33,891 nt of DNA, taken from the NCBI GenBank assembly GCA_944325025.1, contig CALUYN010000020.1, forward strand, positions 1 to 33,891, given 5' to 3'. Below the pieces are notes generated by a model that made no database searches, was not told the origin of the DNA, and saw nothing but the letters and a program-made list of their open reading frames with translations. The DNA is from Candidatus Gastranaerophilales bacterium. GTDB lineage: Bacteria; Cyanobacteriota; Vampirovibrionia; Gastranaerophilales; Gastranaerophilaceae. The number at the start of each line of letters is the position of its first letter. Position 1 is the first letter of the stretch. Position numbers and translations under genes: made by a program. Positions 1,266 through 33,891 of this stretch are shown piece after piece.

Positions 1266-1357
1266 AGTAAATTTGTAACATATTTCTTTATATAGTGCAA
1301 AGATTTAACAAATATGTTAAAATAATTATGTTAAATATCAAATATAAGGAGTTGAGA

Positions 1358-2343
1358 ATGAAAAAATTTATTGAATTATTACAGAGCTTCGGGGGGGGGG
1401 CACTGTAGGCTCCGCCGAAGGCAAAGAGGTTAGCCAGTTAGATAGAAGTCCAGAGGTCAGGAAGGCAGGAGGTCAATCCGACGTTCAGCATGACACGAAC
1501 CCTCTCCCTCAATCCCTCCCCCGAGGGAGGGAAGTTAAAAGATCCTCTTCACGCTTCACACTTCACTCTTCACTTAAAAAGAAAGCCGCCTTCCCTCTCG
1601 CCGAAGGTGCTACGCACGTAGCCCACTTTCACAATATTCGTCGAGTTGCATTTACTTTAGCTGAGGTACTCATCACCCTCGGCATAATCGGTGTTGTTGC
1701 AGCAATAACAATCCCGACTCTTGTTAACAAATATCAGATGAAAGTTTTTGAAACAGCGTTTAAAAAGCAGTATTCTGTATTTCAAAATGCTCTTAATCTT
1801 GCGGTTTTTGAAAATGGCACTTCAGAGTGTTATATTTTTTATACTGGAGGAATGTCATATCAAACACGAAAAGAGGACTGCAATCTCCTTAAAGAAAATT
1901 TAGTATCATTACTACATCTTACTCCTATTAAAACTGATGACAAATCATATAAATACAAGCTAAAGTCAGAAGTGTTGGCTCAGGGTGGTAAAACAGTAAA
2001 TAGTAATTGTACTTATGATGATTTTACCGTATATAATAATCCGGCAGTTGGTACATATATGACTAATGACGGGGCTATTGTAAAATTGTCTTTAAATACT
2101 ACTTCTGCATATATGCCTGTTATGATATTTGACGTAAACGGCCTAAAAGGCCCGAACAAATGGGGTTATGATGTATTTTTTATGACTTTGACAAAACGTG
2201 ATAGAAATGGCTCTATTGACCAAAAAATATTTCTGACTGATGAATACTGTTCAATTGTTGAAAAAGGCGGACGTCTGCCGCGGAATATTCTTCAGAATAA
2301 AGAAAAAACAGAGGATAGTGATTTTTCTTGGCTTTGGGATTAG
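1358..2343 (+). CDS. Prepilin-like protein, out of frame at a 10-G tract (candidate phase-variable gene)
   Basis: AAGGAG at 1346-1351 sits 6 nt before the ATG at 1358. The first codons read MKKFIELLQSF, then ten G (1391-1400), and the frame stops at TAG 1406-1408. The frame reached by adding one G (or removing two) is open without a stop from the tract to TAG 2341-2343, giving a 328-residue protein. In that frame a repeat-like insert is followed by RVAFTLAEVLITLGIIG (codons from 1642), a classical prepilin N-terminus cleaved before Phe (codon 1651). The mature part carries DVNGLKGPNKWGYDVFF, matching the block in the intact gene at 25009. The normal leader of such proteins is about 5 residues; here it would be about 98. 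An annotation starting at ATG 1738 would lose the whole pilin helix, and no ATG, GTG or TTG lies in frame between the tract and 1738. Mature product: pseudopilin-like surface or secretion protein of unknown role. It could be a true pseudogene or an assembly error in the tract. Confidence 0.75.
1391..1400 (+). repeat. Poly-G tract (10 G), candidate slippage switch
   Basis: Ten consecutive G directly follow codon TTC of the leader. Ten G put the downstream prepilin out of frame; eleven or eight put it in frame; nine lead to a TAG about 14 codons after the tract. The block CAGAGCTTC plus ten G plus CAC (1382-1403) is identical to 33695-33716. Such a run is very unusual in AT-rich DNA. Confidence 0.85.
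1401..1640 (+). repeat. Repeat-derived insert inside the prepilin leader
   Basis: This stretch is far more GC-rich than its surroundings. Its pieces recur at other places in the window: a 24-nt block (1453-1476) identical to 33731-33754; a hairpin TCCCTCCC-CCGA-GGGAGGGA (1513-1532) like those at 18563-18582 and 24660-24679; and GGTGCTACGCACGTAG (about 1607-1622), also found near 24699-24714. It interrupts the leader between the MKKF-like start and the AFTLAEV cleavage region, and it contains no stop in the prepilin frame. No transposase or clear target-site duplication is visible. Confidence 0.7.
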
Positions 2344-33646: not shown

Positions 33647-33673
33647 GAATATATAAAAATGAAAGGAGTAATT

Positions 33674-33891
33674 ATGAAAAGATTTAAATTATTGCAGAGC
33701 TTCGGGGGGGGGGCACATCTCGGCTAACCGGAGGTCAGGAAGGCAGGAGGTCAAGATGTCAAGCTATTTACGTCATTCTGAATTTATTTCAGAATCTCGT
33801 GTTTAGATGCAAAAATGCTAAGAGGCGGAGACGCAAAGCTAGTATCGAAAAACTTTTCCCTCCCATAGGAGAGGGAGCTGCGCAATTCTGT
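33674..33891 (+). CDS. Second prepilin-like leader, out of frame at a 10-G tract, cut by the window end
   Basis: AAAGGAG at 33662-33668 precedes ATG 33674. The leader reads MKRFKLLQSF, closely matching the leader at 1358. Ten G follow (33704-33713), and with ten G the frame stops at TAA about 4 codons later. In the frame reached with eleven G (or eight) no stop occurs up to base 33891, the last in the window. This stretch is repeat-like sequence (24-nt block shared with 1453-1476, hairpin 33775-33795). The prepilin domain itself is not seen here and is inferred from the matching leader and promoter layout. Alternatives are a decayed copy or a miscounted homopolymer. Confidence 0.6.
33704..33713 (+). 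repeat. Second poly-G tract (10 G)
   Basis: Ten G with the same flanks as at 1391-1400: CAGAGCTTC before and CAC after (33695-33716 is identical to 1382-1403). Its length decides the frame of the downstream reading frame. Confidence 0.85.
33714..33891 (+). repeat. Repeat-derived sequence at the right edge
   Basis: It contains the 24-nt block (33731-33754) identical to 1453-1476, a hairpin ATTCTGAA/TTCAGAAT (33775-33795) like the one at 27037-27064, and a stretch at 33786-33872 that aligns with 24440-24526. It is open in the +1 frame of the leader at 33674. Confidence 0.68.

Follow-up and report, generated by a model that had tools for sequence, protein, structure and literature searches.

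The window, i.e., the whole stretch of 33,891 nucleotides that was analysed, is contig C20 of a 1.76-Mb assembly (G000). Its features of interest are collected in Table 1, i.e., a gene start whose reading frame runs into ten G, the prepilin frame behind it and a second start of the same type.

Table 1. Features of the tract-bearing loci in the window (positions refer to the window).
Feature	Positions	Strand	Remarks
Shine-Dalgarno AAGGAG	1346..1351	+	6 nt upstream of ATG; direct reading of the sequence
Leader ORF, OFF state	1358..1408	+	ATG at 1358, 16 codons, TAG at 1406
G10 tract (putative switch)	1391..1400	+	flanks TTC-G10-CA; direct reading
Expanded prepilin leader, ON frame	1401..1650	+	largely DNA repeated elsewhere in the genome; includes palindromic GGTGCTACGCACGTAGC at 1606-1622
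Prepilin cleavage motif and mature pilin, AFTLAEVLITLGIIGVVAAITIPTL...	1648..2343	+	open frame, motif reading, profile and model evidence
RBS and ATG (33674) of second, same-type gene start	33662..33676	+	gene interrupted by contig end; no prepilin motif within reach
Second G10 tract of the window	33704..33713	+	frame 0 stop at 33725; OFF at 10

The window locus and its predicted product

Read directly, the frame of the ATG at 1358 translates into MKKFIELLQSFGGGAL and then meets the TAG at 1406, while 1399-2343 forms an open frame in which AFTLAEVLITLGIIGVVAAITIPTL is encoded at 1648. For this locus (L307), we computed the ORF from the ATG at different tract lengths, which yields 328 aa at 11 G, 16 aa at 10 G and 24 aa at 9 G. 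In the ON frame, no ATG, GTG or TTG is found after the tract before position 1738, which already lies within the mature part. The first-pass annotation had described the same arrangement, i.e., a ribosome binding site and ATG followed by ten G and a stop, a +1 frame open through 328 codons into a prepilin and no alternative start before 1738. These claims are borne out by the direct reading, the ORF recomputed at 11 G and the start codon scan, respectively. By analogy, we take the prepilin cleavage site to lie between A and F at 1650/1651. A promoter scan was uninformative (9 found vs. 4.3 expected). The second start (window 33662-33891) belongs to a gene that is cut off by the contig end.

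The N-terminal motif of the type [GA]FTLxE... is present as AFTLAEVLITLGIIGVVAA in the window protein, and F2, T3 and the LITLG block are invariant among 12 aligned sequences. A profile of 12 homologues matches Geobacter pilins in the PDB over the N-terminal helix (best 3.6e-6), and the NCBIfam pilin and pseudopilin models match the window protein weakly. Among these, TIGR02532 is just short of its cut-off for the window protein (15.6 bits for P0001 and 16.1 bits for P0002 vs. 16.3); some sister prepilins pass it, e.g., L082 at 21 bits. No Pfam family was found for P0001 at E 0.01. The predicted model (pLDDT 82, pTM 0.80) shows a 53-residue N-terminal helix (4-56) with strands after it; the respective Foldseek search of the PDB gave no match at E 0.001. 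The genome holds one prepilin peptidase A24 (PF01478; G000:C1:35420, 34.3 bits vs. a cut-off of 26.5).

Next, relatives of the window pilin were inspected. The 20 listed matches (E 1e-40 or better, own locus included) stem from 9/34 genomes of the genus. Decay of the downstream frame, which the first-pass annotation named as counting against its reading, is observed in none of them, i.e., the matched part is free of stops in 20/20. In 14 of the 20, G9, G10 or G11 precedes the motif by no more than 1,000 nt. Among the others, L312 (near a contig end), L315 and L319 have no run in the stretch, and L317, L318 and L323 end before the motif. The named relatives are MAGs that bear the title Candidatus Gastranaerophilales bacterium or uncultured bacterium. 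Among the named homologues, L180 and L186 lack a run and have a short, plain leader with MKRAFTLSEV, which is perhaps the ancestral form.

Tracts and prepilin frames across the genome

The locus is one of 57 G-runs of at least 8 in its own genome. The first-pass annotation was right about the locus itself but left this set and the second tract of the window (33704-33713) unmentioned, and it recognised neither the narrow tract length nor the conserved DNA flanks. We analysed 56 of the 57 tracts, where one was merged for identical flanks (taken to be L081 with L075); 16/56 are without an assigned gene. Respective run lengths are 10 (41 tracts), 11 (5), 9 (4), 8 (4) and 12 (2). The chance expectation was estimated on contig C1 of the sister genome G011 (396,650 bases), where 20 mononucleotide shuffles gave a mean of 0.5 G/C runs of at least 8 and 0.0 of at least 10. 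Compared to these values, the 47 and 45 runs observed on that contig are far beyond chance.

For 40/56 tracts, there is a ribosome binding site and ATG within 160 nt together with a single frame of at least 150 aa. At 34/56, all of them among these 40, one open frame runs between the ribosome binding site/ATG and a prepilin motif, with the tract being G (26) or C (8) on the coding strand. Most of these prepilins are OFF in the assembly and need +1 G (23), while 3 are OFF otherwise and 8 are ON; three prepilins are ON at a run of 11. The remaining two frames at the 34 tracts reach at most 43 aa. Within the 3,511 codons of the 34 leaders, these frames contain 206 and 320 stops; the stop-free ON frame is true by construction, since the loci were selected by an open frame to the motif. 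Broken pilin frames do occur, i.e., L074 has 7 stops and L081 1 stop before the motif, and L051 reaches 95 aa at best.

We consider it probable that the window gene encodes a phase-variable type IV-type prepilin with slipped-strand switching at the G10 tract. That is, the tract would slip during DNA replication such that its length changes by one. With 10 G, translation from the ATG at 1358 would stop after 16 codons (OFF), and with 11 G (or 8) it would pass through the long leader into the pilin (ON), where the prepilin peptidase would trim between A and F and the leader would be discarded. Given at least 34 such prepilins in the genome, each cell would express a small, changing pilin subset, because the commonest length is OFF and, for most loci, one step from ON. 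We infer replication slippage as the cause; populations would be mixed, and expression of the pilins, display of subsets and a surface function are likewise presumed. The prepilin identity, the OFF state in this assembly and the +1 step to ON, all claimed by the first-pass annotation, find support in the sequence and in the 34 such prepilins of the genome. Its reading of the +1 length change as the switch to ON is further supported by purifying selection on OFF copies and by length differences between similar copies, both given below.

To quantify selection, the genomes G001 and G011 were compared. They share 12 reciprocal-best pairs, all with a prepilin motif and all needing +1 in both assemblies. 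We pooled dN/dS over 6/12 pairs; the 6 pairs that were dropped had an identity of at most 60% or a dS of at least 1.5. The pooled mature region (1,370 codons) has dN 0.028 and dS 0.296, i.e., dN/dS is about 0.10, and for the pooled leader (44 codons) we find dN 0.58 and dS 0.63. Going by these substitution rates, the pilin of OFF copies is kept by purifying selection and the short leader is drifting; a leader that is removed by cleavage would be expected to drift in this way.

These values also bear on the idea that the OFF copies form a silent stock, i.e., that they are pseudogenes or recombination donors. Many paralogues share DNA and 26/34 copies are OFF in the assembly, as such a stock would have it. 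However, all 34 have a ribosome binding site, an ATG and an open leader frame, while silent donor cassettes are not known to have starts, and the purifying selection seen for G001/G011 concerns OFF copies. We thus give this idea hardly any credence. The same holds for a homopolymer error with the gene always being ON, a reading we regard as most improbable. It can point to the single assembly and to scaffold gaps that touch some G001 tracts, but the same length recurs in many genomes, the error would need to drop a base (-1) in one genus but add a base (+1) in two further genera, and 8/34 prepilins are ON in the very same assembly.

The leaders behind the tracts vary strongly in length, i.e., from 7 to 280 codons for the 34 of the own genome and from 6 to 36 for 43 in G011. 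The window part 1320-2400 has 83 DNA matches within its own genome, and the palindromic repeat GGTGCTACGCACGTAGC occurs in 10 exact copies there, several of them in prepilin leaders; it is found in 23/34 genomes of the genus. A removable leader would tolerate such in-frame repeats. A repeat search of 1380-1700 alone gave no repeats internal to that stretch.

We also considered internal starts as a general bypass of the switch. An in-frame ATG, GTG or TTG is present in 24/34 prepilin leaders of the own genome, 8 of which have an SD-like site and 4 an ATG with an SD-like site; the same counts for G011 are 9, 1 and 1 of 44 leaders. There is none in the window leader. A general bypass was rejected, while it is possible at single loci.

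Beside prepilins, other open frames at tracts encode family 2 glycosyltransferases (L092, L096), AAA ATPases (L104, as well as L067 with a peptidase M41 domain), a DUF1796 protein (L101) and a protein with a weak, sub-cut-off TMEM260-like match (L100). Four non-pilin genes with an assigned start are ON at 10 (L063, L095, L101, L104). L096 has two G10 runs (2002-2011, 2292-2301), 280 bases apart, in and before the glycosyltransferase frame. L090 (1-1722, - strand) encodes a prepilin whose G10 leader is followed by nine stretches of YadA-head repeats; it is possibly a pilus-borne adhesin. The AAA ATPase L104 (G000:C42; set L187-L206) has its G10 in frame, being ON at 10; in the G001 and G011 orthologues, a G10 is found at a different position. 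Based on this set, we rejected the idea that the tract was inserted as a mobile element, since the orthologues L188, L190 and L192 of L104/L187 carry ten G-rich bases with interruptions where the tract would be. This site hence resembles a tract that has decayed or become locked rather than an empty site.

Tract length between copies, genomes and genera

Among 262 distinct tracts, we identified 11 pairs that are at least 85% alike on both flanks. For 4/11, the run length differs by one. Two of these pairs include L120 of G104, which has no long ORF. The third is formed by the paralogous prepilins L147 and L148, both within the genome G191, where G11 is ON and G10 is OFF, and the fourth relates L217 (G001) to L249 (G011), with flanks 94% and 96% alike, 11 vs. 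10 bases and no ORF assigned. In a fifth pair, own L014/L321 vs. L324 of G009, 1,127/1,146 aligned bases are identical (98%), with further small gaps elsewhere in the alignment. The run is G10 in both, and G009 has an extra A behind it as well as one substitution; own L014/L321 is OFF (15 aa) and L324 is ON (326 aa), as if the latter were an interrupted 11-base tract. The other 6/11 pairs show no difference. The five pairs with a difference do not amount to five independent cases among prepilins (shared L120, no ORF, paralogues, G10 in both). Excluded as evidence were two unequal G001/G011 pairs (11 vs. 10 beside a scaffold gap; 8 vs. 10 with a changed downstream flank). The length differences shown concern the gene set and not the window locus; the nearest relatives of the window pilin in the genus reach at most 71% protein identity.

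Scaffold gaps (runs of N) adjoin several G001 tracts (L287, L288, L294), as if the assembly broke there.

Within a genome, tract length is narrow. On contig C1 of G011 (396,650 bases), G/C runs of length 6, 8 and 10 occur 2, 2 and 45 times, with none of length 7 or 9 and none longer than 10. For one locus per genome of the genus (30 loci, 32 runs), we find 10 in 22 runs, 9 in 5, 11 in 4 and 12 in 1; two of the four runs of 11 are ON in this sample. In a 400-kb part of G084 (genus g3), the lengths are 6 (11 runs), 7 (3), 8 (1) and 11 (8), and pattern listings of other g3 genomes also contain 10, 12 and 13. The loci read of genus g10 (G064, G149, G126, G340) have 13, where the search pattern was blind to runs above 13, and genus g7 (G191) shows a mixture of 10, 11 and 12.

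For prepilins, the commonest length is the OFF length. At 10, ON needs +1 in 48/51 assigned tracts of G011 and in 23/27 of G001, which are subsets of 179 and 155 runs, partly picked by the TTC...CA pattern. In g3, by comparison, ON needs -1 or +2 at 11/11 runs of 11 with a long ORF (G083, G084, G324), and in g10 it needs -1 (or +2) at 5/5 runs of 13 with a long ORF. G082 of g3 deviates, i.e., L142 is ON at 12 and L141 at 13.

Slippage explains the frames, the length differences and the selection. On the other hand, a missing step of nearly always +1 within the genus is not predicted by symmetric slippage, and the near-uniform length on contig C1 of G011, with 45/47 runs being exactly 10, counts against it as well, as does MutS1, which is over its cut-off in 33/34 genomes of the genus. 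The uniform length may reflect a MAG showing the mode of a fast-changing population, where the same mode at each locus would, as proposed here, result from fast slippage.

A programmed recoding, where the tract is fixed at 10 G in the DNA and slippage of the RNA polymerase or a ribosomal frameshift yields the pilin, would fit the near-uniform length within genomes and the fact that most loci lack the same step. The G10 found in both G001 and G011 at several loci with flanks about 10-15% different points the same way. Against it, the step differs by genus (+1 in g1 vs. -1 or +2 in g3 and g10), for which a single directed frameshift is unfit, and recoding must work on G as well as C runs (8/34 prepilins with C). 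Furthermore, DNA length and state vary between closely similar copies, and some copies are ON with a run of 11. Since the needed direction differs between genera and copies differ in DNA, we hold recoding to be unlikely and prefer slipped-strand switching.

The tract flanks were also evaluated. Of the 47 runs on contig C1 of G011, 46 have a C in front (97%, one A) and all 47 have a C behind, which is succeeded by A (68%) or G (31%). Among the 25 runs of the own genome outside G-sense prepilins, 76% have a C in front and 84% a C behind; they include unrelated genes, with either strand coding. Downstream of the run, AGC or AGCT is found at about +9 to +13 (spacing by eye). Flanks conserved in both orientations speak for a constraint at the DNA level; alternatively, they may reflect shared descent of the leader module. 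Such conservation is not needed by plain slippage.

A further candidate is a dedicated DNA-level process that would recognise the tract together with the flanks (C-Gn-C[A/G]...AGCT) and would set the length or alter it. Such a process would fit the lengths of the genera, i.e., 10 for g1, predominantly 11 for g3 and 13 for those g10 genomes that were read, as well as the C flanks in contig C1 of G011 and in the own genome outside G-sense prepilins, unrelated genes included. Yet the tract is surrounded by no inverted repeat beyond shuffled partners in 5 groups, and the shared flanks may go back to descent of the leader module; we deem this hypothetical process very unlikely. Tentatively, and with considerable doubt, one may think of a genome-wide switchboard in gut Gastranaerophilaceae, where a trans-acting process would read the C-Gn-C[A/G]...AGCT flanks in either orientation and keep dozens to more than 100 tracts at a genus-specific OFF length, one step from ON, such that each cell would show a small random pilin subset.

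A hairpin around the tract was rejected, i.e., matched flanks pair no better than shuffled ones in five groups (p-values 0.80, 0.95, 0.35, 0.70 and 0.09), with short inverted repeats at some loci. Lost mismatch repair was also rejected as a cause: MutS1 is over its cut-off in 33/34 genomes of the genus, and the exception, G025, has one run only.

Known systems and distribution

Simple-repeat phase variation is known mainly from few host-associated, mostly proteobacterial genera. Campylobacter has a small AT-rich genome, as is the case here. According to the respective studies, the Campylobacter phasome comprises 5-81 phase-variable genes per strain, the poly-G lengths among isolates are 9 in 53% and 10 in 26%, and 5% of the in-ORF tracts are poly-C (PMC6321876); phase-variable switching is given as about 1e-3 per division (PMC4965091). 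Both systems share intragenic poly-G/C tracts of about 9-11, frame switching and many loci per genome. In contrast to the spread lengths and 5% poly-C of Campylobacter, we observe one dominant length per genome and 8/34 poly-C prepilin tracts; furthermore, prepilins account for 34/56 tracts here, and up to 179 runs are found in a sister genome.

For Neisseria, one study lists 15.4, 18.2 and 19.4 poly-G tracts per genome on average for three species and 1-7 in other commensals, as well as a G run of 9-20 for pilC of the pathogenic ones (PMC5953494). The gene pilC resembles the present case in that a pilus gene is switched by a G/C run inside its reading frame. Unlike the window prepilin, PilC is not a pilin; it is present in two copies and modulates pilus retraction.

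A further likeness concerns the leader repeats. Rickettsia palindromic elements lie in frame inside genes, such that repeat DNA is tolerated within the coding region in both cases; the repeats described here, in contrast, are found between the switch and the peptidase site.

Among the papers listed from the open-access literature, which leaves preprints and most subscription papers uncovered, we found none joining Gastranaerophilales or Melainabacteria with repeat-based phase variation; one listed for Melainabacteria deals with flagellin diversity. Our preferred reading is a known mechanism, i.e., slipped-strand phase variation, in an apparently unreported lineage and at unusual scale. The mechanism would be of the same kind as in known systems; lineage, scale, protein class and length uniformity differ. 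With 34/56 tracts controlling prepilins in a hardly cultured gut lineage related to cyanobacteria, the set may be one of the largest single-class switch sets. Should this be correct, these pilins are overlooked or truncated in assemblies and annotations. The difference of one to three bases between genera raises the question whether polymerase chemistry or a dedicated process sets the tract length.

Finally, we evaluated the distribution of tracts. The TTC-G8..13-CA pattern is found in 77/384 genomes of the order and 13/52 of its genera, some being single stray matches, and in 0/22 genomes of other families of the order. In a phylum sample (386 genomes), matches outside the class are scattered (0 to 6 per genome vs. 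0 to 4 for the reversed control) and, among those listed, mostly 8 or 9 bases long, with a single run of 12. Within the genomes searched by this pattern, dense tract sets are thus seen only in the family Gastranaerophilaceae of Candidatus Gastranaerophilales.

Within the genus, runs of this minimum length of 8 are present in 33/34 genomes, and the TTC-G10-CA type pattern is found in 29/34 (reversed-pattern control: 0 to 2 per genome). Runs of at least 8 range from 0 (G003) and 1 (G023, G025) up to 155 (G001) and 179 (G011) per genome. Over all 34 genomes of the genus, those with more runs also tend to have more prepilin-like stretches by a loose count (Spearman 0.71). Exceptions are G002 and G004, which have many prepilin-like candidates (118 and 148) but few G-runs (7 and 4, respectively).
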